From contig PATE01000024.1 in NCBI GenBank assembly GCA_002712305.1, positions 27,536-66,357 of the forward strand: a stretch of DNA of 38,822 nt, given 5' to 3'. Numbering within the stretch: the first letter of the stretch is position 1; every line of letters begins with the position of its first letter. The translations under genes were made by a program, and so were the position numbers. The DNA is from Gemmatimonadota bacterium (GTDB lineage Bacteria > Latescibacterota > UBA2968 > UBA8231). Below are positions 237 to 31,418 of this stretch, one piece after another. Below the pieces are notes generated by a model that had not been told where the DNA came from, ran no database searches, and saw only the letters and a program-made list of their open reading frames with translations.

Positions 237-822
237 ATGAACGAACGCAACTCCATACGCATTGCCGCCATCATCGGCTCAGTCCGCCCTGACAACTATA
301 CGGCGAAGGCCGTTGCCCTTGTGGAGGATGAGTTCGCCTGTCGGCACCCGAGGTCACTTTCGATGTCGTGGATCCTCGCCATCTGAATCTGCCCGGGCCC
401 GGGTCGGAGACAGACGACGCCAAGTCGATGCAGGAGATTGTGGGTGCTGCAACGGGGGTCATCCTCTCCACCCCTGAATATCACGGAAGCTACAGCAGTG
501 CCATCAAGCTCGTGATTGAGAACATGAGTTTCCCGTCAGGCTTGGGGTAAGCCGGTGGCGATGCTTGGGGTGGTGGCCGGGCGCATTGGTGCCATCAAGG
601 CCCTCGAGCATCTCAGTTCTGTCGTTACTCACGTGGGTGGTCATGTTCTGCCCGGTTTCGTTTCTGTGGTGGGGTGTCCAGGATGTGTTCGATGAAGCCG
701 GCAACTGTACGGATGCGTCCACAGATGAACGCATCCGGGCGCTGGCAGGCAATCTGATGGAGTACATGCACAAGTATCTGTGCCCTCGACAGTGCATGGA
801 AGCGGTCTCGCGAGAAGTGTGA
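237..822 (+). pseudogene. NADPH-dependent FMN reductase, broken by three frameshifts
   Basis: Reading across three frames gives a near full-length (about 190 residues) flavodoxin-fold reductase. The N-terminal IAAIIGSVRPDNYTAK segment is the GS-x-R phosphate loop that binds FMN phosphate. The middle piece contains STPEYHGSYSSAIK, matching the family's TPEYN(H)GS-x-P/S-x-x-LK motif. The next piece has KPVAMLGVVAGRIGAIKALEHL and the last piece DEAGNCTDASTDERIRALAGNL. The frame changes near 340, near 547 (a GGGG run) and near 675 (another GGGG run). The last two are each repaired by removing one G. Intact homologues reduce FMN or quinones with NADPH. Homopolymer indels can be sequencing errors, so this is either a young pseudogene or an intact gene misread in the assembly. 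The start is the ATG at 237. Confidence 0.8.
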
Positions 823-1288
823 TTTGGCGATTTCCGCCAACCCAACGTGTCATTTCGCCCACATTTGATCAAAAAGGTGGAATCGGAGATCGGCAGATTG
901 TCTGAGATTGTCGGACAAGTTGGTGATGTAGGAAAAAAGTGTTGGTCTGCCTCAGATTTCCTACAGTCGTCCTGCAATGTTTTCATCTACTGCCATGCTG
1001 GCAGGCGGAGAAAAGCAAGAAGCCTATAAGGTGTGGTTATTGCGGTAGTTGTGAGAGGCCCCAGGCGTGCCATCCCGGCCTGATGGTCGTCTCAGGCGTT
1101 TGTTCTCCCGAATGTTGCGAGAATCTGTTGCCATGGCGAGTGACGGTTAGCACATCGTGTCACGGGCGATTTGTCGAACAACACACTGAAGGCCATAGAC
1201 TTAGCCCCATCTTCGGCCAAGAACGGCTCTATTGGCGCGGGATTTGCGTGTGTTTTGATGCAATCACACCGGCAAGGATGCCGAACAC
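823..1288. other. 466-base stretch with no convincing gene
   Basis: Open frames on both strands here are short, lack Shine-Dalgarno sites, and give no recognisable protein pattern. One plus-strand frame (939-1301) is cysteine-rich around its centre (CGYCGSC, then CSPECC), which I treat as chance or as the remnant of something unrecognisable. A GTG-started frame at 847-1029 gives an amphipathic stretch but no homology that I recognise. I see no tRNA, no strong hairpin with a U tract and no clear promoter. Confidence 0.5.
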
Positions 1289-1300
1289 GGAGGTGATGTG

Positions 1301-1531
1301 ATGCCCCACTATCGTTATTACGAAGCACAAGGCAGCGAAGACGAGATCACCGTCATCGAAGACAAGTCGATGTTCGTCAAGGACCAGAATGGCAACTGGG
1401 CCCCTGGTTTCGAGTTCATCGATACGCAGACGGTGAAAGCGCACCCTTCCATCATTGACGCCCTGCTCGAAGATTCCGAGCGGCTCTGGTCGATGGACGA
1501 AGTCCTGGCTGAGATCGCCGACGTTGCCTGA
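1301..1531 (+). CDS. Small acidic protein of unknown function (76 aa)
   Basis: A 76-residue frame begins with ATG at 1301, placed 7 bases after a good GGAGG site at 1289-1293. The GTG at 1298 is in frame but too close to that site. The product is acidic and soluble-looking, with a beta-rich first half (YRYYEAQGSEDEITVIED, then WAPGFEFID) and a helical C-terminal half (SIIDALLEDSERLWSMDEVLAEIADVA). There is no signal peptide, membrane segment or metal motif. It stands alone: the FMN reductase remnant lies upstream on the same strand and a decayed esterase converges from the other side. I do not recognise the family. The ribosome-binding site and the balanced composition are the reasons for calling it real. 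Confidence 0.65.
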   Translation: MPHYRYYEAQGSEDEITVIEDKSMFVKDQNGNWAPGFEFIDTQTVKAHPSIIDALLEDSERLWSMDEVLAEIADVA

Positions 1532-1688
1532 GTAGTCCCTCTCCCTGCGCACCGGATGGTTCAGGTGCGTTTCGGTGTGCCATGGCTGGTCTGTTGGCCA
1601 TTCGTCCACCGCCGGGCCCCTGTGCCCTGCTTCTTCCCTGAAAAACGACCGCCGACTGCGGTGGCATCTTCATTTGTCTGTTTGGGGA

Positions 1689-3021
1689 TCAATCGACCTG
1701 TGCTCGAACAAAGTCTCCAGCGAGACCGGCGATCTCGAAATGGGTCACCGCCTCGCCGTCGCGCGTCGTCAGACCGCGAGCATGATCAAACAAGATCCGC
1801 AGGCTCTGGCCCTCTCGTGTCAGACGGACAAATCTGGGTCCCTGGTCCTGAATACTCCGCATACGATAGGTCCGATTCAGGGCAAGATTGGCAAGTCTCA
1901 CACCCACCGTGCGTTTGTCACGGGGATGGATGTCGGCCACGTCGCCCACATCATTGATCGCCACGTTCGCCAGCCGGGTCGGCACCCTGTTCTGAGCTTC
2001 CCACAACACGGGTAAGTGACTCGGGTTGCCATAGCGGAAAGGGGCCAGCTGTACGAAGTAGAAGGGCAATGCGCCCTGACTATCAGGTCCTTGCCCGCCC
2101 AGGCCGCCGGGATGTTCAGATGACGACGAAACCATACCAGACCATCGAAATCGGCCAGCCCCCCATCTTCCCACATGTTGGGGATCGCCATGGTCTGCCA
2201 TTGGCGATCGTCCAGGCCCGGGTCCGCCAGCTCACCTGATAAATCTGCTTCAGCCGCGTGTAGTGCCTCGCCTCAGCATTGCGCTGTTGGGCCATGACCA
2301 GATCCGGCGCGATCTGGTCTCGCCGTGCCACCGCGCTGGTCACCACCTGTGTAGCTGAGGAATCGAGTCGCCCGATCAGCCAGTCGATGTGCGCTGCGTC
2401 GGTCCACGGTTCGATCCGTGTGCCACCCCAGTTGCTGCTGATGAGTCCGACGGGCACGTTCGGTTCTCGGTGCAAGCGGCGCCCAAAGTGAGTACGCCAC
2501 GGCCGAAAAGGGGCGGGCCGTTTCCGGAGTGCAGATCTGCCAGGACGCATCGATGGTCGTCCTCGGCGAAAAGGCGGTTGTACGGGGAACGGTCAGCAGC
2601 CGAATCTGTGAGTGCTGTGCAGCGTCGATGGTGGCTTCGGCATCGTGAGTCTGCGCCATCGGCCACTGCATATTCGACTGACCCGATGCGATCCAGACTT
2701 CGCCGATCAGTACATCCTCCAGCGCCACGCGCTCGTTGTCCGTCTCCACGATGAGGTGATAGCGTCCTCCCGCTTCTCGTGCTGACAACTCGACTGCCAA
2801 CGGCCGTCTGCGCCAACGGTCGTTGTCGCTGCCCCGTCATTTGCGAGACCCACCAAGACCTGCTGGCCCGGCTCGGCCGATCCCCCAACGCGAATCGGCG
2901 TCTGGCGCTGCAGGACCATGTGATCGGTGAAAACGTCTGCCACCTGCAACGGTGAAGCGGCGCCGGGAAGCATGCCGGCCATGATGACGAAGACGACCAC
3001 AAAAAGGCGTTGGATTTGCAT
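1689..3021 (-). pseudogene. Sialate O-acetylesterase, decayed (frameshifts, internal deletion, short C-terminus)
   Basis: The start is clear: ATG at 3021 with AAGGAG just upstream, the site overlapping the stop of the upstream sulfatase, then a signal peptide (QIQRLFVVVFVIMAGMLPGAAS). The frame breaks near 2798, 2493, 2232 and 2077. Joined pieces show the SGNH-type esterase hallmarks: GEVWIASGQSNMQWPM with the nucleophilic serine, [47 protein letters not shown], and the catalytic histidine region DVADIHPRDKR. Between AAWAGK and FYFVQL the family normally has well over 100 residues (a jelly-roll segment and the YQGESN region). Here they are nearly adjacent, so an internal segment is missing. 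The C-terminus stops soon after VTHFEIAG, earlier than usual. Intact relatives remove O-acetyl groups from sugars in the periplasm. The deletion argues for true decay rather than read error. Confidence 0.82.
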
Positions 3022-3034
3022 CGTGGAGTTCTCC

Positions 3035-4447
3035 TTAGAACTGGGGGCCGACGGGTGCCACGCGAAGAATCGGGTACTCAGAGTTGAGCAGGGACGCATC
3101 ACCACTGTCGCGACAGCGCGCCCACATCTGACGGCAGAGGCGTTCAAGGTGTTCTCGACAGTCGTCGTCATGTACGCGATTGTGAGTCTCGTCTGGATCG
3201 GTCTTCAGATGGTACAACTCGTCTTCATCAAACCCGTTGAAGACATATTTCCAATCTCCGTCCCACACGACTCGCTGGGTGAGCAGCATGCGACCACCAA
3301 AATACTCCGCATACCCCTGCTGCCAGTCGGCCGTTTGCTGCGGTTGATGCAGCAACTCATCAAAGGACCGGCTGTCACCGCCGGTATCCATCGATTCACA
3401 GCCGGTCAGCTTCAGCAACGTCGGTCCCAGGTCGTGCAGACCGACGCGGCCGTCACACACCTGACCTTGACCTACACCAGGTCCTGCGAGGGTCATGGGA
3501 ATCCGATAGACCTCTTCGGCAGCGGTGAAGTTCTTGCAGTACAGACCGTGTGCACCCAGTAGTTCACCGTGGTCGGAGGTGAGAACGACGAGGGTGTCAT
3601 CGAGTTGCCCAGCAGACTCCAGCCGACTCAACAGAGCGCCAAACAGATGGTCGATTTCTGTGATGGAGGCGTAGTAACAGGCGGCAGCTTCGCGATGCTG
3701 ACGCGGCGTCATGTGGGCCCAGACCTTGGCCGCCTTGCGATAGATACCCGGTCGATTCACCAGATCGTCATCGACGGATTCCGGGAGAGGGATCGAGTCG
3801 ATGTCATAAGCGGACAACGCTTCAGACCCGCAGACGAAAGGATCGTGAGGTTCCTGCAGACTCAGCACACAACACCATGGATTGTCTCTACTGCTCGCAT
3901 CGTCCAGAAACTCCTCGGCAAGTCGAACGCGTGCCCCGACCCGTCTGTCTTCGGGTGGAGTATCGACGGCGCCATAGAATCGACTCGATCCATACCCGGG
4001 GGGCTGGTCGAGGCTCCACTCCAACGACCACGGCGCATCCCCAACGACGTGTGCGTCGTTTGCCTGCAGAGCAGGCGATCCCTCGCACGCGAAGTCCTGC
4101 CAGCCGAAGGTGTTCAACTGTCGAGAGCGCTCCACATGCCATTTGCCGAAGTAGCCGGTTCGATAACCGGCCGTCTCCAGACCCTGGGCCCAGTGGGGCA
4201 GATCGGTGCGCAGGCAGCACTGGTCGTCATCGACGGTGTGGATGACACTGAGAACACCGTGGGCATGGGGCAGTCGGCCCGTCATCAGACTCGCCCGAGC
4301 GGGGGAACAAATCGCGTTGGGTGTGTAGGCCCGCGTGAAACGAGTGCCACGAGCCGCGAGTCGATCCATGTGGGGTGTGTGGCAGACATGGCCGTCGTCA
4401 AAGACGTCGCCCCGCAACTGATCACACATCAGAATCAGTATGTTCAT
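3035..4447 (-). CDS. Sulfatase, cysteine type (S1-like), no signal peptide
   Basis: The 470-residue product is an alkaline-phosphatase-fold sulfatase that hydrolyses sulfate esters. The N-terminal NILILMCDQLRGD supplies a metal-binding aspartate (MCDQ). C47-S-P-A-R is the core C-x-P-x-R signature, whose cysteine is converted to formylglycine. GKWH follows near residue 102, and LTSDHGELLGAHG near 290 supplies the second metal pair. The C-terminal part (WDGDWKYVFNGFDEDELYHLKTDPDE) is the usual sulfatase tail. No signal peptide precedes the first strand. The ATG at 4447 overlaps the TGA of the zinc-ribbon gene by one base (TGATG), so translation is probably coupled; a GTG at 4450 is the alternative start. 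The esterase pseudogene follows after 13 bases. The substrate cannot be read from the sequence. No formylglycine-generating enzyme lies in the window. Confidence 0.93.
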   Translation of the reverse strand: MNILILMCDQLRGDVFDDGHVCHTPHMDRLAARGTRFTRAYTPNAICSPARASLMTGRLPHAHGVLSVIHTVDDDQCCLRTDLPHWAQGLETAGYRTGYFGKWHVERSRQLNTFGWQDFACEGSPALQANDAHVVGDAPWSLEWSLDQPPGYGSSRFYGAVDTPPEDRRVGARVRLAEEFLDDASSRDNPWCCVLSLQEPHDPFVCGSEALSAYDIDSIPLPESVDDDLVNRPGIYRKAAKVWAHMTPRQHREAAACYYASITEIDHLFGALLSRLESAGQLDDTLVVLTSDHGELLGAHGLYCKNFTAAEEVYRIPMTLAGPGVGQGQVCDGRVGLHDLGPTLLKLTGCESMDTGGDSRSFDELLHQPQQTADWQQGYAEYFGGRMLLTQRVVWDGDWKYVFNGFDEDELYHLKTDPDETHNRVHDDDCREHLERLCRQMWARCRDSGDASLLNSEYPILRVAPVGPQF

Positions 4448-4739
4448 CACCAGGTCTTCCGATACGTCTTCATATAGTCTCCCGGGTGGTCATTGGGATC
4501 CATGCGTGGGACCTGATTCTCACACGAAGGACATGTCAGACCATCGCGCAGGACGACGGCGCCACACGTTGGGCAGGCTCTTACCATTCGATAGGACAAC
4601 AACACACCGATGGGGCCCAAGAGCTCCCATGACGGCGCGCCACATGCAGGGTCCACAGTGCGGCGAGGACCCACAGGATTGCTAGAACTGCCGAACCCAA
4701 CAGGAGCCACCTGACCAGATCGTCGTCCATCGGCGTCAT
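4447..4739 (-). pseudogene. Small membrane protein with zinc ribbon, one frameshift
   Basis: From the ATG at 4739 the frame gives a short acidic N-terminus (TPMDDDLVRW) and one strong membrane helix (LLLGSAVLAILWVLAALW), then runs out of frame near 4630-4645. The next frame continues with ELLGPIGVLLSYRMVRACPTCGAVVLRDGLTCPSCENQ and ends at 4447. The two CxxC pairs 11 residues apart form a classic zinc ribbon. Joined, the product would be about 96 residues: a membrane anchor followed by a cytoplasmic zinc ribbon, a common small architecture of unknown role. It lies 10 bases after the acetyltransferase and overlaps the sulfatase start by one base, so it belongs to that operon. Either the frameshift is a read error or the gene is newly broken; the coupled overlap suggests it was functional recently. 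Confidence 0.65.
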
Positions 4740-4749
4740 GTCCAAGTGG

Positions 4750-5355
4750 TCACAGGTGCAGGATCATGTCGTGGTTGTCGACGCCACCGGCGAAGAATCC
4801 ACGTATGCGCTCAAAGCCGAACTTCTCGTAGAAGTGACGCGCTCGCGGGTTGTCGTCGCGCACCCCACCCATCAAGATGATCTGCTGACGACCCACACGT
4901 CGCGCGGCATCGGTGACGACGGGGAACATGGCACTGCCCAATCCGTTTTCCTGCCATCGATCGGCCACCACGGGGGCGAAGGTGGCCGTGATCGTGTCAT
5001 CCAAGGGGTGATCCACTTCTCGATATCGACCCGCGTCGCCGGGACGTACACCCAGTTCGAGAATCATATATCCCGCGACCTGCTCAGGGGTCTCGCTGGC
5101 AGGTCCCAGGGCGATGAATCGTAAACTCGTGGCATAGTCGATCTGTTCACACAGAACCTGCGCATGTTCACAGTTCAGGGGATGGGGGCCATAGACACGA
5201 CGCGACGCATCAGCGAGCGAATCGAAGAAGACGCCGAGGGCTGTGGCGTCCGTATTCCGCAAGGGTCGCACGAGGAAAACGTGGCCCTCCCTGTCGGACA
5301 CCTCCGACGCAAGCGGTGATGGATCGGCGGCAATCTGTGTTGGGGTCAGCGACAT
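4750..5355 (-). CDS. GNAT family N-acetyltransferase
   Basis: The 201-residue protein carries a GNAT fold, which transfers an acetyl group from acetyl-CoA to an amine. The beta4 strand and P-loop read TATFAPVVADRWQENGLGSAMF, with ENGLGS matching the Q/R-x-x-G-x-G/A acetyl-CoA-binding motif. The C-terminal NPRARHFYEKFGFERI is the typical motif B (N-x-x-A-x-x-x-Y-x-K-x-GF). The start is the ATG at 5355, 16 bases after the glycosidase stop with GGAG upstream; longer frames upstream only overlap that gene antisense-free in another frame and lack coding character. The first 30 residues are a low-complexity leader before VFLVRPLRNTDATAL. The acceptor substrate is unknown. Its place between a glycosidase and a sulfatase could mean an amino-sugar substrate, but this is inference. 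Confidence 0.88.
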   Translation of the reverse strand: MSLTPTQIAADPSPLASEVSDREGHVFLVRPLRNTDATALGVFFDSLADASRRVYGPHPLNCEHAQVLCEQIDYATSLRFIALGPASETPEQVAGYMILELGVRPGDAGRYREVDHPLDDTITATFAPVVADRWQENGLGSAMFPVVTDAARRVGRQQIILMGGVRDDNPRARHFYEKFGFERIRGFFAGGVDNHDMILHL

Positions 5356-5371
5356 GGCATCCACTCCGTAC

Positions 5372-6325
5372 TCACGAGCCGGGCCCATCCCAGGAGGCGG
5401 TACCGATGGCGAAGTACTTGTGCTGAAATGGTGGAGCCGGGCGCGACGCATACCACATTCGCCAGCGGCCATCGTGCAACTGCTGAATCGATTGACTCGT
5501 CGTATAGTGAGACTCCCAGGCGCGTGCTGCATCTGGACCGAACACGGGGTTGTGGTCGCTCTTCTGCCAGCGGATGCCGTCTTCTGACACCGCCACGCCC
5601 AGAGCCGTCTTGTGTGGATCGGCACTCTGATAGCTGCCATACCACATCACGAACAGCTTCGGCTCTGGCTGCAGCACATACGGGTAGAACAGACGACCCC
5701 ATTCCCAACTCTGATCCAGCTCAAGCACGGGTGCCTCGGTTACCGACCAGTGGTGGCCGTCTTCACTGCGGGCATGGCGGATACACCAGGGCTCGTCGGA
5801 GACATCGGTGTACCACAATCGATATTCACCCGCGACCTTGAGTACGGAGGGGGCGTAGGCGTTCTCCAGTTGCACATCGGAAGGTGAATCCCAACAGAAC
5901 CCATCGTCACTGGTCGTGTCGTGAAGAGTGTGGCGCCCCGTGCCCGTGGGGAAGTCGGTCGACGAATACCAGAGTCGCAGTCGGCCGTTTTCCCGCACGA
6001 TCTGGCCAGTACCCTGGCGCAACAGCGCAGGCGTCAGAATCGAATCGTTGCTGTGGTCGACCTCGAAGACTGGCCCCTCAGGATTCTTGCGGAAATGCAC
6101 GCCGTCGGTCCCTGAGGCATGTCCCAGTTGGAAGACACGACCACCCACATCGCCGGAGGACCCGGAGTAATAGAGCCGGAATTGGTCATCTTCCCACAGG
6201 GCGCAGGGCGCGAACAGGTGCATGTCATCAAAGGCACCCTCCTCGCCAAGGCCGATGACCGGATCTGCCTTTCCATCCCTCTTCCACCGTTGAGGCTCGA
6301 GCCAGGCCGCCTGCAGATCTCCCAC
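5372..6325 (-). CDS. Five-bladed beta-propeller glycosidase-like protein
   Basis: The 317-residue product shows repeated propeller-blade patterns: FRLYYSGSSG, LRLWYSSTD, YRLWYTDVSDEPW, LFVMWYGSYQSAD and WRMWYASR, each followed by a GxxxSxDGxxW-type strand (ASGTDGVHFRK, TTSDDGFCWDS, ARSEDGHHWSV, AVSEDGIRWQK). This is typical of the GH43/GH32/GH130-like superfamily, which cleaves or phosphorolyses sugar linkages. There is no signal peptide. The start is a GTG at 6325, directly abutting the TAG of the upstream sulfatase, with AGGGAG inside the sulfatase end serving as ribosome site, so the two are translationally coupled. The exact family and the catalytic acids cannot be assigned by eye. Coupling to a sulfatase suggests that it acts on the desulfated product. 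Confidence 0.75.
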   Translation of the reverse strand: MGDLQAAWLEPQRWKRDGKADPVIGLGEEGAFDDMHLFAPCALWEDDQFRLYYSGSSGDVGGRVFQLGHASGTDGVHFRKNPEGPVFEVDHSNDSILTPALLRQGTGQIVRENGRLRLWYSSTDFPTGTGRHTLHDTTSDDGFCWDSPSDVQLENAYAPSVLKVAGEYRLWYTDVSDEPWCIRHARSEDGHHWSVTEAPVLELDQSWEWGRLFYPYVLQPEPKLFVMWYGSYQSADPHKTALGVAVSEDGIRWQKSDHNPVFGPDAARAWESHYTTSQSIQQLHDGRWRMWYASRPAPPFQHKYFAIGTASWDGPGS

Positions 6326-7786
6326 CTAGCTCCCTAACGCGGCCGGGTAATCGAAGTGCCACCGCCCCTGACCAAAGTCCGCGTCGTCCCACAAGGGCGT
6401 GTTCCCGATACTTCGGTCGCTGCCGGCAGCGGCAATCGACACCAGCAATTGGCGCGTGAGTTCCCCATCGAGACGAGCGGCAATGCCACGGGTCTCATCG
6501 GACTCATGTTGTCGATCGTTCTGTTCGTGGGGGTCCTCATCTACGTTGAACAAGTGACTTTTTCCGGTGCTCGAGTTCTTCACCCACTTCCAGTGTCCGT
6601 CCGTGTTCATCATCGCACCACCGACAAATCCAAAGACGCGCTCGCGTGGGGCATCGGGTAGGCCCAATTCGGGCAACGTGCACGAATCGTAATAGTCAGG
6701 ACGATCCACGCCGGCCAGACCCAACAGGGTGGCCGTCACGTCGGCCAGGGACACGACATCCTCACAGATGACAGACTGTCGCCTTGCCGGCTGTCGCACA
6801 ATCAGCGGTACGTGACAGCTACCCTCATAGAAATTCATCTTGCCAATCAGATCGTGGTCTCCAAGCATGTCTCCATGGTCGGAACCGAAAATCACGACCG
6901 TGTCTTCGAGTTGCCCCGTCTCTTCGAGGGCTACCACGATCCGCCCCACCTCGTCGTCGATCTGTTTGACCAGTGCCGCGTAGTGCTGTCGGACCTTCTG
7001 CTTGTGGACATCAGTGAAGACGGAGTAGTCAACACCATTCCAGTCGCCGCGGTTTCCCCGGATGTTTGCCTCGCGCAGGGGGCCATCGTGATCCTCCACA
7101 AAGGCGGATGCTGTGGGGATCTTGCCTACATCAATCTGGTCCAGTGCCTCGGCGCACGGATCGTATGGACAGTGAGGACCGGGAAAACCGACCATGGCGG
7201 CGAAGGGGCGATCGTCATCGTATTCCTCGATGAAGCGCACGGCCTCTGAGCCCACATACCCATCCCACGAATCTTCCAAATCGTAGGGACAGATGATGGC
7301 ACCACGATTCTCTTGGTATCCCTCGTGATCGCGTCCGTGCAATTTGCGCAGGCCTTTTGCCGATAGGTGCCGGAAATAGTCGTCCTCGATGGTCAACCAA
7401 CGCTTGTCTTCACAGATGACACGATGCTCGAACCCAAGCGAAGCATCCCACGGATAGAAGTGCATCTTGCCGATGGAAGCGGTCAGGTATCCGTTATCGG
7501 AGAGGATCTGTGCCCAGGTCTGAATCCCACATTCGTTCAGGTCGGGTCGCAGGAAATGGGAATTGTCCAGCACGCCGTTCTTGATCGCATCGCGTCCGCT
7601 CAGCAACAGACATCGCGCAGGAACACATACAGGGGAGGGCGAATACGCTCGCGCATACCGAACCCCTTCAGATGCGAGGGCGTCGATGTGGGGTGTCGAG
7701 ACGAAATCGGCACCGTGGCAACTGAGAAAGTCGGCCCGCAACTGATCGGGCATGATGAACAGGAGATTCGGGCGTGGTGTCGACAT
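6326..7786 (-). CDS. Sulfatase, cysteine type (S1-like), no signal peptide
   Basis: This is a 486-residue sulfatase. The N-terminal RPNLLFIMPDQLRAD gives the first metal aspartate. The formylglycine motif is C54-V-P-A-R, followed by LLLSGR. The histidine and lysine segment is SIGKMHFYP. VVIFGSDHGDMLGDHDLIGKMNFYEG is the C-terminal metal site and substrate lysine region, and NTDGHWKWVKN begins the small C-terminal domain. The ATG at 7786 puts the first strand at residue 6, leaving no room for a signal peptide; the longer frame to 7906 is not supported. It is the first gene of the minus-strand run that continues through the beta-propeller protein. The ribosome site (GCGAGA) is weak. The substrate is unknown, and it differs clearly from the other two sulfatases in the window, so recent tandem duplication is unlikely. 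Confidence 0.93.
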   Translation of the reverse strand: MSTPRPNLLFIMPDQLRADFLSCHGADFVSTPHIDALASEGVRYARAYSPSPVCVPARCLLLSGRDAIKNGVLDNSHFLRPDLNECGIQTWAQILSDNGYLTASIGKMHFYPWDASLGFEHRVICEDKRWLTIEDDYFRHLSAKGLRKLHGRDHEGYQENRGAIICPYDLEDSWDGYVGSEAVRFIEEYDDDRPFAAMVGFPGPHCPYDPCAEALDQIDVGKIPTASAFVEDHDGPLREANIRGNRGDWNGVDYSVFTDVHKQKVRQHYAALVKQIDDEVGRIVVALEETGQLEDTVVIFGSDHGDMLGDHDLIGKMNFYEGSCHVPLIVRQPARRQSVICEDVVSLADVTATLLGLAGVDRPDYYDSCTLPELGLPDAPRERVFGFVGGAMMNTDGHWKWVKNSSTGKSHLFNVDEDPHEQNDRQHESDETRGIAARLDGELTRQLLVSIAAAGSDRSIGNTPLWDDADFGQGRWHFDYPAALGS

Positions 7787-7881
7787 GAGTCTCGCATGGG
7801 CGCATTGATGGGTTGGGAACACGGCGCGTATCATAGGAAAGGCGCCGTCCGCTCTCCAGCGGCCAGTGAAGAAGACGACCA

Positions 7882-8375
7882 GTGGAGAAGAAGGACAGCT
7901 TGTCAAAACCGATCAGGTCACTCTGTGTCATTCTCGCTGTGATCGCAGGGTTGTCCTGCGGCAGCGACTGTTCATCCACACCCACGACGCAGACGATACC
8001 CGACCATGTGGCCGACGTGCAGTCGATGTCTTCGGTGAGCCGGGTGCCTACAGTTTCCGGGTGACCGTCGCCAGTCCGGACAGTGGGTGTGGGCTGTAAG
8101 CCGACTGGTGGGAGGTGGTTACGACAGAGGGGCAACTGCTCTATCGGCGTGTGTTGCTGCACATTCACACCAACGAGCAGCCCTTCGCACGCAGTGGGTC
8201 GCCCGTTCCCATCGCCTCTGACCAGCAGGTCTGGGTGCGGGCGCACATGAAATCAGATGGATACGCAAGCGATGCGCGGAACGGCTGCAACGGATTCGAA
8301 GCGGCCGATCTGGATCCAGGCTTCGCCGCAGGTGTCGTCGACGAGGAACCGCTGCCGACGGGATGTGCTTTCTAG
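7882..8375 (+). pseudogene. Small lipoprotein gene, broken by a frameshift and an in-frame stop
   Basis: From the GTG at 7882 the frame starts with a lysine-rich lipoprotein signal (SLCVILAVIAGLSCGSD, lipobox LSC-G). After about 45 residues the frame is lost near 8024. In the next frame VDVFGEPGAYSFRVTVASPDSGC continues naturally. It is stopped by TAA at 8097-8099 and then resumes in the same frame as ADWWEVVTTEGQLLYRRVLLHIHTNEQPFARSG to the end. I recall conserved small lipoproteins with tyrosine just before ADWWEV, so TAC or TAT to TAA is the likely change. The tail has VRAHMKSDGYASDARNG. The function of this family is unknown. Its stop codon overlaps the stop of the convergent sulfatase. 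Two independent lesions make true inactivation likely. Confidence 0.7.
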
Positions 8376-9682: not shown

Positions 9683-9710
9683 ACCGTGTCTCCGGAGAAA
9701 GGGACGAAAG

Positions 9711-14286: not shown

Positions 14287-14346
14287 TTAGACTCTCTGTT
14301 CAGGTGTGGTCAGGGGTGTCGGGATTTCGAGACGATCGATCTTCAT
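14287..14346 (-). other. 19-codon micro-ORF resembling the start of an enolase-superfamily gene
   Basis: ATG at 14346 opens a 19-residue frame beginning MKIDRLEIPTPL and ending with TAA at 14287, just before the intact enolase-superfamily gene, which begins with MKITQVERF. The micro-ORF start overlaps the stop of the broken hydrolase by four bases (ATGA), a typical operon junction. It may be a fossil N-terminus of a deleted gene of the same superfamily or a short leader. Being so short, it could also be chance. Confidence 0.3.
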
Positions 14347-15405
14347 GGGCGAAATGTCGGTCGCCAGAGTTGCGGCGGAAAGTACCATCCGGCAGACGGT
14401 GCGGCGTCGCGCAATGTGCGGTAGTAACGGATCACATTTTCTGCCGCCAGGCGTGCGATCTTCTCGTCAGGCCGCCACTCCCGCACGATATAGGGTCCAC
14501 CATTGCGACCCGGGTAGAGGCTGGCGGTGTACTCGAAGCCAGAGCCCGAATCGTTGAGCAGCATCTTGATGAAACCTAGCTGCGGCACCTGCTGAAGCAG
14601 TGTCCGAATCAACTCCGCGTAGTGCCAGCGCACGGCCGGATGCGCCACCGACAGGGTGTAGCGAGGCAGATGGATCGGAAGGTGTGATCGATGCATGCGC
14701 TGCGCAGGTGCGGCCAACGGGCCAGCAAGCTCTCCGGTACTGAACGAGGGTGTGCGGCGTAGAGCCCGGGGATCAAGCCATACTGCTGTGCCACTTCCGC
14801 GGTGCGTTGCAGCAGGTCGAGGTTTGCGCCCAGGTACTCACGCGGATAGGTGCCCGCATTCAGTCAGTTTCGACATACTGATCGATATCGGGCGTGTAGT
14901 CGTAGAATCGATAGTACACCTCTCCTGCGGGCCCGGTCTCAAAGGACCGCGGTGCCAATTCATTGATCACCACGTGTGTACAGCCAAGCCGGGCAAGTTC
15001 CTGCATGGAGGCGTGGATATCGTCAGGCCCGATGGGCTGTTTGCGGCGCCGCAGGAATCCATAGCGACCGGTGAGCCAGGTGAAAGTGGGTCGTAACCAG
15101 CGACCCTCCCGGAACTGCTCGACAGGCTCGTGTCCCCATTGATCACGGATGCGAGCATAAAGGCTGAACAAGACAGCGGGTGAGGAGGCAAGCATCTCGC
15201 CATCGCCATCTGTGCAACTCACGCACGCCCACTCACCCTTCTCTTTCTCGTGACCCTCCCGACGTACGCCGATCTTCAACGTCCCCGTACGTTCATCGTC
15301 GCTTACGTGCGAGCAAGCCTTCAGGGCGGTCGCCACCGTTTCACACACGGGGTCATCGAATTCGAAAACGGGAACACAGGTCTGCAGTGTTTGGCTCAGT
15401 GTCAC
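14343..15405 (-). pseudogene. TIM-barrel glycoside hydrolase-like gene, two frameshifts and short 3' end
   Basis: The GTG at 15405 starts 6 bases after the stop of the upstream gene. The first 181 codons form an N-terminal alpha/beta domain (TLKIGVRREGHEKEKGEW) followed by a barrel entry (GPDDIHASMQELARLGCTHVVINEL), as seen in GH67/GH20-like enzymes. The frame breaks near 14862, continues as NAGTYPREYLGANLDLLQRTAEVAQQYGLIPGLYAAHPRSVPE, breaks again near 14685, and continues as LPRYTLSVAHPAVRWHYAELIRTLLQQVPQLGFIKMLLNDSGSGFEY to RYYRTLRDAA. After that the sequence loses family character and stops at 14343, with the second half of the barrel absent. The exact GH family is not recognised. Intact relatives would cleave glycans or uronosyl linkages. 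Truncation points to genuine decay. Confidence 0.65.
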
Positions 15406-16959: not shown

Positions 16960-16983
16960 GGCAAACCTCCCCGGTAGGATGAC

Positions 16984-17466: not shown

Positions 17467-17931
17467 GGATGTGCCTCATCGAGTTGATCAGGGCTTTGCC
17501 GTCGGCCGTCGGAATATAGAGGACACCCTGTTTCTGCGTCACCGAATCGGCACAAGCGTCTCGGTGGCAGTGATGATTACATCCTGCAACCGTCGGGTCG
17601 TCTGGTCGGCCGAGACCTCTCGTCGTCCTCGATATCTCGGGGGGTCCCGAAATACCGGCCTGAAATCGTGCCAAAGTCCACAAAACTGTCGGCCAATTCG
17701 TCCGTCGCCCATGTGAGAATGGCCGTCGCGTCTGCCGCCTGTACCAAGACATCGCTGATCGTCGGCAACGTCGCATCTGACTCGGCATCGGTCATGAAAC
17801 TGTCGATCGTCGTCGTGGTCGGGCCGTTGTTGCTCAGATCGGTGGACCTCGTCTGGAAGTAGTACGTCGTGCCCGCTGTCAGGTTGGTAAGGGGACCTGC
17901 ACGTCAAGGGGGCTGAACCTACGTCCACTGG
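17459..17931 (-). pseudogene. Remnant of a fibronectin type III-like secreted protein
   Basis: One frame contains NLTAGTTYYFQTRSTDLSNNGP, the E-F strand pattern of FN3 domains (x-L-x-x-x-T-x-Y-x-F-x-V/T-R), followed by LPTISDVLVQAADATAILTWATDELADSFVDFGTISG, the start of the next such domain. The segment before (near 17892-17905) and after (near 17640) changes frame, and no start codon or signal sequence precedes it. A further frame ends at 17459, overlapping ogt. The fragment is about 150 codons of what is usually a multi-domain extracellular protein. It is probably left from a deleted larger gene. It lies between the EamA transporter and ogt, with no sign of its own promoter. Confidence 0.6.
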
Positions 17932-21896: not shown

Positions 21897-22873
21897 TGAA
21901 TAGCGATCGCAATCACGCAGATACGGTCAAGCGAATGACCGATGCGGCGTTGGCCCTGCTGCAATCCCTCGACGATGGACAACGAAAACAGGTTTGCCTG
22001 CCCTTCGATGGCGACGTGCGCACCGACTGGCACTATGTCCCCAGAGGCCGACCGGGATTGCCGTTGAAACAGATGGATGCCATCCAGCAACAACTGACGC
22101 GCATGCTTGTGTCAACGGGTCTGAGTGCGACGGGCCACCACACGGCGATGACGATCATGGAGTTAGAAACCGTTCTGGCCGGGATCGAGGGTGGCGGAAG
22201 GCGTTTTCCACGAGATCCCGAGCTCTACTTCGTCAGTGTTTTTGGCGATGTTGGCAGCGATCAGCCGTGGGGATGGCGCTTCGAAGGCCACCACATCTCC
22301 ATCAATCACACGATCTTCGATGGCCGTCAACTCGCCACCGCGCCGGTATTCTTTGGCAGCAATCCGGCTCAGGTACGTCACGGAGAGCGGCAAGGTCTGC
22401 GGGCCCTGGCGGCAGAGGAGGATGTGGCTCGCGATCTTCTGGCTCAACTCGATGGCGATCAACGAAGCGAAGCGATCATCTGCGCTGAGGCACCGACGGA
22501 CATTCTCACAACCAATGTGGTCAGCGTTACCGATGAAGTGCGAATCGAAGGCCTAGTGGGGCAAGACATGACCGCTGCGCAGAGGCAGACGCTCGAGGCA
22601 CTCATCCACGTCTACATCTCGCGCATGCCCGAGGCGGTGGCAGAAGCGGAGATGGGCCGGGTCAGGAACACAGATCTGACCAAAGCCTGTTTTGTCTGGG
22701 CAGGATCCACCGACCCGGGCAAGGGTCACTACTACCGTGTCCAGGGCGACTGTTTCGTCGCCGAGTATGACAATACGCAGAACGACGCCAATCATATCCA
22801 CGCTGTCTGGCGCGACCTGCAGGATGATTTTGGCCAACAAATGTTGCGCGACCACTACCGCGCAAGTCACTGA
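21893..22873 (+). CDS. DUF3500 domain protein
   Basis: The 326-residue protein matches the DUF3500 pattern as I know it: an N-terminal MTDAALALLQSLDDGQRKQVCLPF, then DWHYVPRGRPGLPLKQMDAIQQQLTRMLVSTGLSATGHHTAMTIMELE, the core FEGHHISINHTIFDGRQLATAPVFFGSNPAQV, and the signature end DCFVAEYDNTQNDANHIHAVWRDLQDDFG. The function of the family is not established; conserved histidines (FEGHHISINH, NDANHIH) suggest a metal site. The paired ATGATG at 21893/21896 overlaps the cupin stop. GGGAG at 21884-21888 fits the second ATG slightly better, so the mature start may be 21896. There is no signal peptide. Pairing with a cupin is consistent with a joint oxidative or hydrolytic step, which is inference. 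Confidence 0.9.
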   Translation: MMNSDRNHADTVKRMTDAALALLQSLDDGQRKQVCLPFDGDVRTDWHYVPRGRPGLPLKQMDAIQQQLTRMLVSTGLSATGHHTAMTIMELETVLAGIEGGGRRFPRDPELYFVSVFGDVGSDQPWGWRFEGHHISINHTIFDGRQLATAPVFFGSNPAQVRHGERQGLRALAAEEDVARDLLAQLDGDQRSEAIICAEAPTDILTTNVVSVTDEVRIEGLVGQDMTAAQRQTLEALIHVYISRMPEAVAEAEMGRVRNTDLTKACFVWAGSTDPGKGHYYRVQGDCFVAEYDNTQNDANHIHAVWRDLQDDFGQQMLRDHYRASH

Positions 22874-22930
22874 TCGTAACCCCTCGTCGTAGGAAATCCC
22901 ATCAGCCCCCAAGTGCTTCGTCATCTGGGG

Positions 22931-22962
22931 TTGACCTCAAATCGGTCGCCAACCCTTACACT
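22931..22962 (+). promoter_or_regulatory. Possible promoter upstream of the FKBP gene
   Basis: TTGACC at 22931-22936 and TACACT at 22957-22962 resemble -35 and -10 hexamers, but the 20-base spacer is longer than ideal. The leader would be about 100 bases to the ATG at 23068. The same TACACT hexamer appears in the better candidate in front of the NfeD gene. Confidence 0.35.
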
Positions 22963-23067
22963 TGAAGGTCCCGTCTTACGAGCAACCATCTTGCCCTTAC
23001 AATCACGCCTCCTGCGCCTGGACTGGCTAGGTGCATCGCTGGAGGCCATCTCAAATCAGGAGACAGT

Positions 23068-23775: not shown

Positions 23776-23788
23776 AAGGAGTTATTCC

Positions 23789-24595: not shown

Positions 24596-24671
24596 CTGCG
24601 GCGTTGGATCGTCGTCCAAAGACCGGCGAGTTCACAGGTCAGCAGCCAGTCTGCACGAACAGTTGTACATG

Positions 24672-24709
24672 AAAAAGGCGCCCCGTCGACGATGACGGGG
24701 CGCCTTTTT
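24672..24709. terminator. Strong bidirectional Rho-independent terminator
   Basis: A perfect 16-base inverted repeat (24672-24687 pairs with 24694-24709) with a 6-base loop (GACGAT). The stem core is GGCGCCCCGTC. An A tract precedes it and a T tract follows it, so it works in either direction. It closes the plus-strand sugar isomerase operon and the convergent minus-strand small coiled-coil gene that ends at 24749. Confidence 0.93.
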
Positions 24710-24748
24710 TAAGATGTTCGCGGTCGGTCCAACCCGCCCCCGGCGAAA

Positions 24749-25069: not shown

Positions 25070-25178
25070 TCCATTCCGACGGATGGGAGAAGCGGATGGG
25101 CCCCTTTTCAAGGCCACGACGTCCTATATATATAGGTTGTGTACGCTGAGGAACAAGTGTTATCCACAAGGGCCGGTT

Positions 25179-28100
25179 TCAGCCGCCTGCCTTGTCCACC
25201 GCCTCCAGCTGGGTCTCCAGACGCTTGGGAGACACCCGCTGGGCCGTGCCCAACTCCTGAGCGAAGATGGAAACGCGGTATTCCTCGAGAAGCCATCGAT
25301 ACTCGTCCATCTGTGCACGTTGGGCAGATCCGGCCTCCAGCAGGGCCGAACGCAGGCGCTCGAGATGCTGATCAAATGGCTCGATCAGGCGTGCCTTGGT
25401 CCGGTCCCGTGAGCCGTCAGCGCGGAAACGATCCGCGCGGATGTGGACGGCTTTCAGATATCTCACCAGGTCCGGCATCCTCTCCACATCGGTTGTGGCC
25501 AGAAAACCTGTGGGCAGCAGTCTCTCGAGGTCGGTTGCCAACTCGGGGTAGGGCTGGCCCATGGCGATGATCTGTTTCCTCCAATCGATGATCTGCTCCA
25601 CACTGTCCAGATATCGCTCCGACAGGCCATTGAGACGCACCTGGGCCTCTAATACACGAGCCGAGAAGCGTGCCTGGGTCAGGGGCAGAAGTGGTGGGGG
25701 CAAAAACAGATGCCGGGCCACCGATTGGTAGGCCTGAGCCTCGAGTTGAGCGGGTTCGCCGAGGGACCGGTGGTCGCCCACGATATGGCGCAGATTGCGC
25801 AGTTCTCTCTGCAGCCAGGCGACTTCCTGGGGCATGGCCAGTTCACACAGACGTACCAGACCTGCCGGTGTGGAGGATTCTGCCTGCTCGCGTTTGGCGA
25901 AGACGCGCACGTGAACACTATCGTCACTCAATAGCAGCCCCGGGAAACCAAAGACCGGAACGCCCGAAACCTCCGTCACCTCCAGTCGTTCGGGGAGGTC
26001 CGCGAAGGTCCACTCGGTCACCTCATCGTGCTCCCACGGTTTCACGGCCTGCTGCCAGGCGTCTCCTGATTGCTCAGGTGTGATGGCCGGTTTCTCCAGG
26101 TGGGAGGTCAGCGACGACAGATCACGTCCTGCGACGATGGTCTCGCCCCCCCGGCCCTCCACCTCCACGCGCAGACTCAGATGCGGTGGGATCTGACTGG
26201 CATCCCACTCTGAGCGACGCACCTTGATGCCGAGTTCTTTCTCGACGCAGATCTCGAGTGCATCGAGGAAGGACCCATCACCGGGTGAAAGCTTCGGCGC
26301 CAGCTGGCGTGCTGTCTCCGGCACTGGCACAAAACGCTTGCGCAGCGCTTTGGGCAGGGATCGCAAGAGGCAGGTGATCTTCTCCAGACGCAGTCCTGGA
26401 ACCAACCACTCCAATACATCCGGGCGAACCGCATCCATCAATCGATAGGGGACGCGCAAGGTCACACCGTCTTCATCCTGCCCGGGTGCGTAGGCGTAGG
26501 ACAGGGGCAATTGTTCACCGTTGTCCAACTCGATGGCGGTGGGAAAGGCCTCATCGTCGAGGTCGAGATCATTCCCACCCAGCAGCAGCCCCTCGTCAGC
26601 GAAAAGGAAATCGTCGCCGCCTTGTTCGCGGATCAGCTTGTTCAGATCCGCAACCGCGCCGACACCCTCCGGCAGGTGTTCGGCATAGAAATCGTGAAAT
26701 GCATTGTCCAGATCGACAGCGTGGCACTGTCGTTGACGCGCCTGCCAGGCTTCCAGACGGGCAAACAGCTGTCGATTGTGATCAAGAAAGGGATGGGTGA
26801 TGCCATCGACCTCATCGGCGATCAGGGCTTCGCGAATGAAGATGTCTGTCGCTTCTCGTGGCGCGATTCGGCTATAGCCAACTCGGCGGTTGGCGATCAC
26901 CAGTCCATGGAGGCGTACGGTTTCGTGTGCGAGCACCCGAGAAGCAGATCGGCTCCAGTGTGGATCTCGATGGCTGACGCGACACAGATACGCACCGAGT
27001 TGCTCGATCCAAGCCGGTTCGATGGCAGCCACCGTGCGGCCATAGAGTCGATTCGTTTCCACCATCTCCGCCGTCACAACCCAAGCCGGATTCGACGTCT
27101 TGCGAGCCGGTGTCTTGGAGTCTTTCTGTTTGCCGGGTCGTTGGAACAGACTCGATCCGGGGAAAAGCATCACCTGACGGCCGCGTGCTGCGTTGTAGAG
27201 ATTGAACGCCTTGGGTTCCTGCTTCTTCTGCGCCACGTTGCTGAACAGGCCTGTCAGAATACAGCGATGAATCGCGTCGTAGGCCTCGGCGCCGATCCGC
27301 ACGCCTTGTTCCGCCACATTCTGTCCCGCAGCGGAGGCCGAACGACTCGGTGCCGCATCTCGTCCGAGACAACTAACATCGAGCCGGAAGCCGCCCTTTT
27401 CCCGCAGAGTGGCTGTCAGTTGCGCATGAATATCCCGCCACTCGCGCATACGCATGAAGGACAGGAAGTGCTCGCGGCAGAAACGCCGCATCTGACTCTG
27501 CGTACCGGTCTCGAGTCGGTCGTGGTAGGCATGCCAGATGTTGTAGAGAGAGACGAAGTCTGAACGTGGATCGAGGAAGCGGCGATGCTGGGCATCGGCT
27601 TCGGCTGCCTTGTCTGTGGGTCGCTCGCGCGGATCCTGAACCGAGATCGCGGCAGCGATGACGAGCACTTCGGGCAGGGCGCCTTCGGCATGGGCCTGCA
27701 GGATCATGCGCGACACAGTGGAGGAGATGGGCAGGTGAGCCATGTCGACGCCGAGACGCGTAAGTCGCTTGTCTCGATCGATGGCGCCCAGTTCCTCCAA
27801 CAGTTGGTACCCACCCTTGATGGCGGCCGGTTGCGGTGGATCGATGAAGGGGAACTTCTCCACCTCCCCGAACTCCAGATCGAGCATGCGGAGAATGACG
27901 TCGGCCAGATTCGCACGCTGGATTTCGGGTTGTGTGTATTCAGGGCGCGAGCCGAAGTCCTCTTCGCTGTACAGTCGCACGCAGATTCCTTCCGCCACAC
28001 GACCACAGCGACCTTTGCGCTGCTCGGCACTCGACTGGCTGACGGCTTCGATGGGCAGACGCTGGGTCTGTGTGCGAGGGTTGTACCGACTTACTCGAGC

Positions 28101-29252
28101 AAGACCCGTGTCCACCACGAATCGAATGCCCGGAATTGTCAGTGATGTCTCGGCGATGTTGGTCGCGATCACGACACGGCGTCCGCTGTGTTCGCCGAAG
28201 ACCCGGTGTTGCTCGGCTGCGGACAACCGCGAGAACAGAGGCATCACCTCTACAGAGCCGAGCCCCTTGGCGGCGCCCAATCGAGCGGTCAGTAGATCCC
28301 GGGTTTCGCGGATATCGCGTTCCGATGGCATGAAGACCAGTACATCGCCTCGGCCACCCTCGGCCAGCAGACGCTCTACGGCGGTGACGGCGCCGTCGGT
28401 GTAGGAGAGGTCTCCTGATTCCGTCTCAAACAGCTCCTCCAAAGACCAATGCCGGACTTCGACCGGGAACATGCGTCCCGACACTTCGATGATGGGTGCA
28501 TCGTCAAAGGCCTCAGAAAAACTCTTCGTGTCGATCGTCGCCGACGTGATGATGATCTTGAGATCGGGGCGACGCTCTCGCAGCGACCGGAGATAACCGA
28601 GGAGAAAGTCGATATTCAGGGAGCGCTCGTGGGCTTCGTCGACGATGAGAGTGTCGTATTCGAGCAGATCGCGATCCGAGCGGATCTCGGCCAGTAGCAT
28701 CCCGTCAGTCACGAACTTCACCAGTGTCTGCGGGGCGGTCTGATCACGAAAGCGGATCTTGGCGCCCACTTGCTGTCCCCATTCCACCTCTAGCTCTTCG
28801 GCCAGACGCCGGGACAAGGAAAGTGCCGCCACTCGCCGGGGCTGCGTGACGGCGATGCGTGCCTGGCCCCCTCGGCCCGCTTGGAGACAGATTTTCGGGA
28901 TCTGCGTCGTCTTCCCAGAACCCGTATACCCGGCGATGATGACAACCGGGTTTTGCTCGATGGCCTGTCGGATGTCGTCGACGCGGGCGCTGATCGGCAA
29001 CTCATCCGGATACCGAATGGTGACCGATTCCAATGCCAGGTCCCGTTGCCGCCGGGTACGTTTCGAGCGATTCAGTTGCTGAGAGATGTGCTCCAGATCG
29101 GCGGTCAGTCGTTTCGGAGGTCGTCCCGCTTCGAGACTCTCACGCAGTTTTCCCAGCCGCCGTCCCAGCCGCACTCGTTCGGCCAGCATGGCCTGTTCGA
29201 GGGACTGCTCGAGACGGGCGAGCTTTTGGTCGGGAGCAATCGTCGTTGTCAC
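25179..29252 (-). CDS. hrpA: ATP-dependent RNA helicase HrpA
   Basis: The 1357-residue DEAH-box helicase is close to the E. coli HrpA length of about 1300. Motif I is G-Y-T-G-S-G-K-T-T-Q (108-117). QPRRVAALSLSRRLAEEL is motif Ia, D-E-A-H (205-208) is motif II, and IIITSATID is motif III. ATNIAETSLTIPGIRFVVDTG and Q-R-K-G-R-C-G-R are motifs V and VI. After the helicase-associated domain, the long C-terminal region (to about 1357) contains the DUF3418-type segment usual for HrpA. The protein unwinds RNA and is linked in E. coli to mRNA processing and ribosome rescue. The GTG at 29252 is the start; no strong ribosome site is visible. It is divergent from the MscS gene. The intact 4-kb frame argues against a generally error-rich assembly. 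Confidence 0.95.
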   Translation of the reverse strand: MTTTIAPDQKLARLEQSLEQAMLAERVRLGRRLGKLRESLEAGRPPKRLTADLEHISQQLNRSKRTRRQRDLALESVTIRYPDELPISARVDDIRQAIEQNPVVIIAGYTGSGKTTQIPKICLQAGRGGQARIAVTQPRRVAALSLSRRLAEELEVEWGQQVGAKIRFRDQTAPQTLVKFVTDGMLLAEIRSDRDLLEYDTLIVDEAHERSLNIDFLLGYLRSLRERRPDLKIIITSATIDTKSFSEAFDDAPIIEVSGRMFPVEVRHWSLEELFETESGDLSYTDGAVTAVERLLAEGGRGDVLVFMPSERDIRETRDLLTARLGAAKGLGSVEVMPLFSRLSAAEQHRVFGEHSGRRVVIATNIAETSLTIPGIRFVVDTGLARVSRYNPRTQTQRLPIEAVSQSSAEQRKGRCGRVAEGICVRLYSEEDFGSRPEYTQPEIQRANLADVILRMLDLEFGEVEKFPFIDPPQPAAIKGGYQLLEELGAIDRDKRLTRLGVDMAHLPISSTVSRMILQAHAEGALPEVLVIAAAISVQDPRERPTDKAAEADAQHRRFLDPRSDFVSLYNIWHAYHDRLETGTQSQMRRFCREHFLSFMRMREWRDIHAQLTATLREKGGFRLDVSCLGRDAAPSRSASAAGQNVAEQGVRIGAEAYDAIHRCILTGLFSNVAQKKQEPKAFNLYNAARGRQVMLFPGSSLFQRPGKQKDSKTPARKTSNPAWVVTAEMVETNRLYGRTVAAIEPAWIEQLGAYLCRVSHRDPHWSRSASRVLAHETVRLHGLVIANRRVGYSRIAPREATDIFIREALIADEVDGITHPFLDHNRQLFARLEAWQARQRQCHAVDLDNAFHDFYAEHLPEGVGAVADLNKLIREQGGDDFLFADEGLLLGGNDLDLDDEAFPTAIELDNGEQLPLSYAYAPGQDEDGVTLRVPYRLMDAVRPDVLEWLVPGLRLEKITCLLRSLPKALRKRFVPVPETARQLAPKLSPGDGSFLDALEICVEKELGIKVRRSEWDASQIPPHLSLRVEVEGRGGETIVAGRDLSSLTSHLEKPAITPEQSGDAWQQAVKPWEHDEVTEWTFADLPERLEVTEVSGVPVFGFPGLLLSDDSVHVRVFAKREQAESSTPAGLVRLCELAMPQEVAWLQRELRNLRHIVGDHRSLGEPAQLEAQAYQSVARHLFLPPPLLPLTQARFSARVLEAQVRLNGLSERYLDSVEQIIDWRKQIIAMGQPYPELATDLERLLPTGFLATTDVERMPDLVRYLKAVHIRADRFRADGSRDRTKARLIEPFDQHLERLRSALLEAGSAQRAQMDEYRWLLEEYRVSIFAQELGTAQRVSPKRLETQLEAVDKAGG

Positions 29253-29323
29253 GGGAGCAGGTTTTCCAGGACGGTGAACTTCAGGACGGTGGCGGCGTCG
29301 AAATGAAGCAACCAGATTGCCGG

Positions 29324-29355
29324 ATGGGGCCCCATATTAGGTAGCAGAATCTACC
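29324..29355. promoter_or_regulatory. Paired inverted repeats in the hrpA/mscS divergent region
   Basis: Two symmetric elements lie side by side: the palindrome ATGGGGCCCCAT (29324-29335) and GGTAG-N6-CTACC (29340-29355). The hrpA and MscS starts diverge at 29252 and 29421, so both promoters must lie between them. These sites may bind a regulator or form a leader hairpin. No clear -35/-10 pair is visible, so this is only a lead. Confidence 0.35.
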
Positions 29356-29420
29356 CCACCCCGGTGAACAATGGAAACCCTGAATCGTGTGCCGGCAGCC
29401 CCGGTGCCAAGAGGCAGCAA

Positions 29421-30632
29421 ATGAGTGAGATGTGGCAGCAGTTGCAGGCATGGATGAACACACATGGGGCTGCGGCGCCCTTTGTTCGCGCAGTGGCGGT
29501 GCTGATCCTGGCATGGGTCAGCAATGTCGTGACGCGCCAGGTCTTGGTTCATTGGATCGGTGGGTTGATTCGCACGACACGTACCCGTGTGGACGATGTG
29601 CTGCTGCAGCGTGATGTCCTTCGACGTATGGCCCTGCTGGCCCCGGTGATCGTCCTCTACTACGGGGCCGACGCCCTGCCCGGCGATCAAGCTCTGGTAC
29701 GCCAGGCGGTCAGTGCGACGTTGATGCTGGTGCTGTTGCTGATCACCGGCGCCATGATCAACGCCTTTCAGGAACTGTCGAACGACTTTGCTAGCGCCAG
29801 CGAGGTGCCGATCAAGAGTTATGCCCAGATCGTCAAACTCGTGGTTTACATCCTCGGTGGTCTGATGACGGTGGCCGTGCTCACGGGTCGATCACCATGG
29901 GTTCTGCTGTCGGGCGTGGGCGCTCTGATGGCGGTGATCATCCTCGTCTTCCGGGAGACGATTCTCAACATTGTCGCCAGCGTCACGATTACTGCGAACC
30001 GGCTTGTGAGGGTTGGCGACTGGATTGAAGCACCCGCCTTCGGCGCCGACGGAGATGTCATCGACATCGCCTTGCACACGGTGAAGGTGCAGAACTGGGA
30101 CAAGACGATTACCACCATCCCGACCTACAAACTGGTGGAAACATCGTTCAAGAACTGGCGCGGCATGTCGGAGAGTGGCGGGCGCCGAATCAAGCGGGCC
30201 ATCTACATCGACATGAGCACGATTCGGTTGTGTGATCAGAAGATGCTGGAGCGTTTCGAACGCTTCGAACTGTTAAGCGATGACCTTCGAGCTCGACGTG
30301 CCGAGGTGGAGCGCTACAACGAAGAAAAGGGGGTCAACACCGAGGAGTTGATCAACGGACGACGCCTGACGAATGTGGGCACCTTCCGCGTCTACGTGGC
30401 AGCGTACCTGAGGAAACATCCGAAGATCCATCAAGACCTGACGTTCCTGATCCGGCAGCTGGCGCCCACCCCCAAGGGACTGCCCATCGAGATCTACGTC
30501 TTTACGAATGACATTGAATGGGCGAACTACGAGGGGATTCAAGCAGACATCTTCGACCATCTGCTCGCCGTGGTGCCCATGTTTGAATTGAGGGTGTTCC
30601 AGGAGCCTACAGGAGCAGACTGGCGGCGTTGA
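29421..30632 (+). CDS. Mechanosensitive ion channel, MscS family (YbdG-like)
   Basis: The 403-residue protein has several N-terminal membrane helices (VRAVAVLILAWVSNVVTRQVLV, MALLAPVIVLYYGADAL, AVSATLMLVLLLITGAMIN, IVKLVVYILGGLMTVAVLT), then the pore-lining helix region PWVLLSGVGALMAVIILVFRETILNIVASVTI, and the MscS beta domain starting NRLVRVGDWIEAPAFGADGDVIDIALHTVKVQNWDKTITTIPTYKLVE. The insert NWRGMSESGGRRIKRAIYID is characteristic of YbdG-type miniconductance channels (about 415 residues in E. coli). It opens on membrane tension and protects against osmotic downshift. The ATG at 29421 follows AGAGG; the frame is open from 29364 but the upstream residues look non-coding. The gene is divergent from hrpA and convergent on the FG-GAP remnant. 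Confidence 0.9.
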   Translation: MSEMWQQLQAWMNTHGAAAPFVRAVAVLILAWVSNVVTRQVLVHWIGGLIRTTRTRVDDVLLQRDVLRRMALLAPVIVLYYGADALPGDQALVRQAVSATLMLVLLLITGAMINAFQELSNDFASASEVPIKSYAQIVKLVVYILGGLMTVAVLTGRSPWVLLSGVGALMAVIILVFRETILNIVASVTITANRLVRVGDWIEAPAFGADGDVIDIALHTVKVQNWDKTITTIPTYKLVETSFKNWRGMSESGGRRIKRAIYIDMSTIRLCDQKMLERFERFELLSDDLRARRAEVERYNEEKGVNTEELINGRRLTNVGTFRVYVAAYLRKHPKIHQDLTFLIRQLAPTPKGLPIEIYVFTNDIEWANYEGIQADIFDHLLAVVPMFELRVFQEPTGADWRR

Positions 30633-30678
30633 TCGCAACACGAGCTAGCAACGCCTCATCACGAATCTCTACGCGATT

Positions 30679-31418
30679 CTACGGGATCGCCTTGGACTGG
30701 GGGCGTTGATCGTAGGGCGGCGGCCGCTGAGTAGACGTAGAGGCTGACACTCCATCCAAAATCTGAGTACCACCTCCGTCGCTGGCGGTCAGGCGCTGTG
30801 TTCCGACCCAGTTGTCCAGCGAATCAGGCTCGAAGACGTGGGCGGCTCCGGCGTCGACACCCATCCACTTCGCCTTGGGTGCGCCCACAAGTAGAGCATT
30901 GCTGGAAACGGCGATGGAGTAACCGAAATAATCGTTGGGGAAACGGCCATCGGGTTGCAGCATCTGCCGCTGAACCCACTTCTTGCCCCGCAGCACGTAG
31001 ACGAAAACAGCGCCTGATTGCTGGTCTGGGTATTCCCCGTTAACGACGGGAGTTCGCGGCGCATCCGCGTCAGGGTCGAATCATAACGACTCAGCACCGA
31101 CACGAAAGCAGTGCTGCCAGCGACGGTGACGCGCCAGCCGAATCGGTCGCCCTCACGAGCATCTGGGTCGAACAGCCCGTCTTCAAGGGTCCACCGCTTG
31201 CCGCGCTTTCTGAAAACGAGGGCATACCCGGCGTCCTTGGCCTTGTAGTCTCCGGAAGCAACACCGGCAACAATGAAGAGCTCATTTCCAGCAGCGGTAT
31301 TAGCAAAACCGGCGTTTGGTTCGGCCTCTTCGTTGATCAGGCCCACAGGAGAAGCGGCATCCACTCGCGCAGACGAGAGCAGTCCAGCCAGTAACCCAGT
31401 TAGCAGCCACCTGGACAT
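30679..31418 (-). pseudogene. FG-GAP repeat (beta-propeller) secreted protein, one frameshift
   Basis: The ATG at 31418 gives a signal peptide (SRWLLTGLLAGLLSSARVDAAS) and the start of an FG-GAP/integrin-alpha-like propeller: ELFIVAGVASGDYKAKDAGYALVFRKRGKRW and DREGDRFGWRVTVAGSTAFVSVLSR-type repeats. Near 31080 the frame changes; the continuing frame reads FDPDADAPRTPVVNGEYPDQQSGAVFVYVLRGKKWVQRQMLQPDGRFPNDYFGYSIAVSSNALLVGAPKAKWMGVDAGAAHVF, clearly the next blades. It stops at 30679 after a short proline-rich tail, fewer blades than the usual seven. The intact protein would be exported and could bind a ligand or surface. One frameshift alone could be an assembly error; the short end makes decay possible. 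It is downstream of the Gfo/Idh gene. Confidence 0.7.

Follow-up and report, generated by a model that had tools for sequence, protein, structure and literature searches.

Probable recent gene losses in a contig segment of a metagenome-assembled genome taken as Latescibacterota

Broken genes at the locus and their counterparts in relatives

The stretch of DNA analysed here (the window; 38,822 nucleotides, bases 27536-66357 of contig 45) comes from a metagenome-assembled genome (MAG) of 4.77 Mb in 146 contigs, with a completeness of 90.9%. It carries the remains of seven genes that a first-pass annotation, made from the letters of the window, had described as frame-broken, together with the site of an eighth loss, an alpha-amylase-like gene, that had been overlooked (Table 1). 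All seven lie at about the places first given for them, and six are broken as described, while the FN3-repeat remnant is truncated by deletion rather than frame-broken. The in-frame TAA of the lipoprotein gene, the missing internal segment of the esterase and the missing second half of the hydrolase, all singled out at that stage, were borne out by comparison with relatives. The long genes that had been read as intact (hrpA, floA and both NfeD genes) are indeed intact.

Our comparison set consisted of one same-genus genome (JABJJN01, 'Gemmatimonadetes bacterium SI074_bin69', JABJJN010000039.1; G001, hereafter the sister genome), itself a MAG, of 7.1 Mb, and 23 further genomes of the family, of 3.5-6.6 Mb. 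The matches of FloA that follow the sister genome are to sequences named Latescibacteria or Latescibacterota, with identity up to 84%, and the organism is taken here, from its sequences, as a member of Latescibacterota. Nearly all of the window shares its gene order with contigs 33 and 82 of the sister genome, and contig 33 is also collinear with much of the 27.5 kb preceding the window. This collinearity makes a gene-by-gene check of the lesions feasible, and we carried it out as a purpose-written frameshift-tolerant protein-to-DNA alignment against the sister genome. Over-long open reading frames in both genomes produced numerous apparent lesions close to their N-termini; these were rejected as start-site artefacts, and most of them disappeared with a codon-usage gene finder. 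An apparent stop and frameshift in a pectate lyase (15415-17224), whose conserved 515 aa are open, are of this kind. An in-frame TGA at 1256-1258 was likewise rejected as a lesion, as it precedes a conserved ATG that is the likely start of the small intact ORF in Table 1.

Table 1. Broken genes and intact controls in the window (positions are those of the window)
Feature	Position	Strand	Observation
NADPH-dependent FMN reductase pseudogene	237..816	+	Three frameshifts near 346, 548 and 672; Pfam FMN_red in three pieces
Small conserved ORF, intact	1301..1528	+	87% identical to the sister genome
SASA-type carbohydrate esterase pseudogene	1701..3006	-	Four frameshifts; internal segment of ~490 bp (160 aa) gone at ~2080
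Zinc-ribbon membrane protein, broken	4450..4730	-	10 aa gone and a frameshift, near 4624
Lipoprotein pseudogene	7906..8372	+	One frameshift and one in-frame TAA
Hydrolase (739 aa) pseudogene	14342..15405	-	Frameshifts near 14864 and 14670; second half gone at ~14390
FN3-repeat exported protein remnant	17625..17891	-	Deletion has left 89 of 1475 aa
Lost alpha-amylase-like gene, site	22871..23023	+	Gone at 22871-22947; possible 36-aa tail at 22916-23023
hrpA-type helicase, intact control	25179..29252	-	82% identical to the sister genome over 1338 aa, no lesion
FG-GAP repeat protein fragment	30682..31460	-	One frameshift; Pfam FG-GAP_2 in two frames

The comparison with close relatives that had been proposed as a check finds five genes intact at the same locus in the sister genome, namely the FMN reductase (195 aa), the esterase with its SASA domain (676 aa), the zinc-ribbon protein (104 aa), the hydrolase and the FN3 protein (domains FN3/Pur_ac_phosph_N). 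The alpha-amylase-like gene is an 804-aa ORF there. A lipoprotein homologue (192 aa) is intact on contig 95 of the sister genome and is absent from the syntenic place, and for the FG-GAP fragment no counterpart was found among the other family members searched; its only matches, at 35-41% identity, come from a different family of the class. Comparison at the DNA level shows that stretches of ~0.5, 2.2, 2.5, 2.6 and 3.5 kb are missing relative to the sister genome, with deletions overall of 0.5-5 kb. The longest of the five, between window positions 14382 and 14399, took in the end of the hydrolase and two further genes of the sister genome; those of ~2.6 and ~2.5 kb flank the FN3 remnant, and that of ~2.2 kb corresponds to the alpha-amylase-like gene. 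An intact second copy of the FMN reductase was not found in the source genome, where only distant paralogues (27-33% identity) occur.

Several features beside these genes were recorded as well. A cluster of three sulfatases (3038-9751) is intact, none with an obvious signal peptide, and a tRNA-Leu (CAA) at 38728-38814 terminates the contig and occupies the same place in relatives. Two remnants that the first reading overlooked lie upstream on the same contig, one at window-relative -1192 to -448, from a histidine kinase with a CBM9-like domain, the other at -22593 to -21722, from a heparinase II/III-like gene; both genes are intact in the sister genome. On contig 3 of the source genome (~5000-5841), only adjoining fragments are left of two genes that the sister genome has, a pattern that a single deletion could have produced.

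Age of the losses and residency of the genes

Pairwise synonymous change between the source genome and the sister genome is near saturation (pS about 0.7). The dN/dS-type check suggested at the outset was run as pN/pS, which is 0.29 in the broken and 0.21 in the intact genes, a contrast that is if anything understated because the broken set includes two genes with a start-site artefact only. Differences in the broken genes are mostly at third positions (a share of 0.59, against 0.66 in the intact genes). Since the signature of selection is thus mostly kept, as expected of genes that worked until recently, the broken genes were functional through most of the period after the two genomes split. 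Private changes in the source genome and in the sister genome stand at 66:32 for the broken and 281:240 for the intact genes, an excess in the broken genes of the source genome (p = 0.015); with the hydrolase limited to its reliably aligned part, the broken genes give 57:32, which is not significant (p = 0.08). An initial hydrolase count of 29:10 was inflated in part by an unalignable end and was replaced by 20:10 within aa 1-347.

Copies in other genera allow most of the losses to be placed on a branch. The FMN reductase is uninterrupted in two such genomes (G005 and G009), open copies of the zinc-ribbon gene at 40% identity and homologues of the alpha-amylase-like gene at 54% identity occur in the same two, the hydrolase is uninterrupted in G005 and, up to the contig end, in G009, and homologues of the FN3 protein are present in G009 and G002. 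Because of these copies, the five losses most likely fall on the branch of the source genome. The loci fetched yielded no outgroup copy of the esterase, so this assignment does not extend to its loss.

Taken as a whole, the lesions very probably represent ordinary pseudogenes of fairly recent origin, along with partial deletions, in dispensable genes and on the branch of the source genome. These genes would have been inactivated by small indels, a single stop and several deletions (0.5-5 kb), and neighbouring genes would have stayed under unchanged selection throughout. We infer that the broken genes have ceased to yield products and that the loss was neutral or nearly so.

Not every broken gene need have been a resident. 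Some of them, specifically the FG-GAP fragment and the lipoprotein gene, could be failed acquisitions, given that the former is unmatched among the other family members searched and is not at the same place in the sister genome, that the latter is located elsewhere in the sister genome, and that failed transfers are a common source of prokaryote pseudogenes (PMC522871). We hold this reading to be tentative and on balance unlikely, although the FG-GAP fragment could be a truncated arrival; five of the eight genes have intact orthologues at the same locus in the sister genome, and these, at least, were resident.

Lesion density and genome reduction

The first-pass annotation had called the density of broken genes unusual, a claim that the comparison did not establish. 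Five of 34 orthologues in the window are broken (one contig-end case being excluded), against 4 of 85 in five other collinear 20-kb stretches of the source genome, with one N-terminal artefact set aside and a stretch of contig 7 excluded as not collinear with the sister genome; the difference is not significant (p = 0.12), and reaches p = 0.02 without two doubtful baseline cases. With a simple codon-usage gene finder, the coding density of the window comes to 84.8%, and 5 of 16 other stretches of the source genome lie lower, which makes it ordinary for this genome. Over all seven sampled stretches, contig 45 included, broken orthologues are more frequent in the source genome than in the sister genome (11/142 versus 1/133, p = 0.006; 9/142 under stricter counting, p = 0.02), an excess that may reflect assembly quality.

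The same excess would fit a Latescibacterota species in which lineage-specific gene decay has only begun, with some 8% of orthologues disabled (1% in the sister genome) while coding density and genome size have yet to change; we consider this improbable. Decidedly doubtful is the proposal, made with the first reading, of ongoing genome reduction in a possibly host-associated lineage of which the window would be a sample. In its favour are the asymmetry in broken orthologues, the larger size of the sister genome (7.1 versus 4.77 Mb) and the existence of sponge-associated Latescibacterota (PMC12993501). Against it, coding density over 284 kb of the source genome is 87.3%, the same as in the sister genome (88.1%) and in other family members (87-92%); 4.77 Mb at the completeness of this MAG is a normal size for a family that spans 3.5-7.1 Mb; and several genes of the source genome are absent from the sister genome, so that turnover runs in both directions. 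Also against it, the SI074 in the sister genome's name suggests, on the basis of the name only, an origin in the Saanich Inlet water column. Host association finds no support in the data examined, and nothing in them links the source genome to the sponge-associated members of the phylum. Reduction in a host-associated lineage is therefore not supported.

A bias of loss toward secreted and accessory functions had also been proposed. A signal-peptide-like start, judged post hoc by eye and with a crude hydrophobicity scan, is present in 4 of 8 broken and 2 of 31 intact genes (p = 0.01), which is suggestive of a bias toward exported proteins, but the window retains intact sulfatases, the pectate lyase and other carbohydrate-acting enzymes.

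Placement of the lesions and comparison with known gene loss

In a gene and lesion list compiled by the analyst, 14 small lesions are confined to 6 of 38 genes. If uniform scatter is modelled as random placement over coding bases, so few genes are hit with P about 3e-4, and in 200,000 simulated trials the hit genes never comprised so few bases. The 4-kb hrpA gene, in which 1.6 lesions would be expected under uniform scatter, has none. Because the lesions are concentrated in few genes and accompanied by large deletions, uniform error is not their main cause, and the claim that they exceed simple read errors is further supported by the intact orthologues at the same loci. That assembly or sequencing errors lie behind most of the lesions is thus very improbable: the overall excess over the sister genome and the FMN reductase lesions, which lack accompanying substitutions and of which one sits within a G run, would agree with error, but the multi-kilobase deletions, the clustering by gene and the ~30 kb of lesion-free neighbouring genes, hrpA among them, would not. 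The FMN reductase is the sole gene of the set that an assembly problem might still explain; because it has three indels without an excess of private amino-acid changes (9 in the source genome and 11 in the sister genome), its lesions apparently either arose very recently or stem from the assembly.

The frame breaks noted in the first reading are hence mostly true gene losses, which is useful for annotating the source genome, and a cluster of broken genes within one window is by itself no sign of genome reduction. They are best read as ordinary bacterial gene turnover; our literature search found no paper on pseudogenes in Latescibacterota.

The window resembles genome decay in recently host-restricted bacteria in that several recent pseudogenes stand beside intact housekeeping genes, and is unlike it in its normal coding density and genome size, with no host indicated. 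In prokaryotes, pseudogenes usually make up 1-5% of gene-like sequences (Liu et al. 2004, PMC522871), and the local fraction is higher (5/34 in the window, 11/142 over all stretches), but was counted against a sister genome and by another method. In kind, the broken genes are like the ordinary prokaryote pseudogenes of that survey (PMC522871), since in both cases frameshifts, stops and truncations affect dispensable genes of which relatives have intact homologues.
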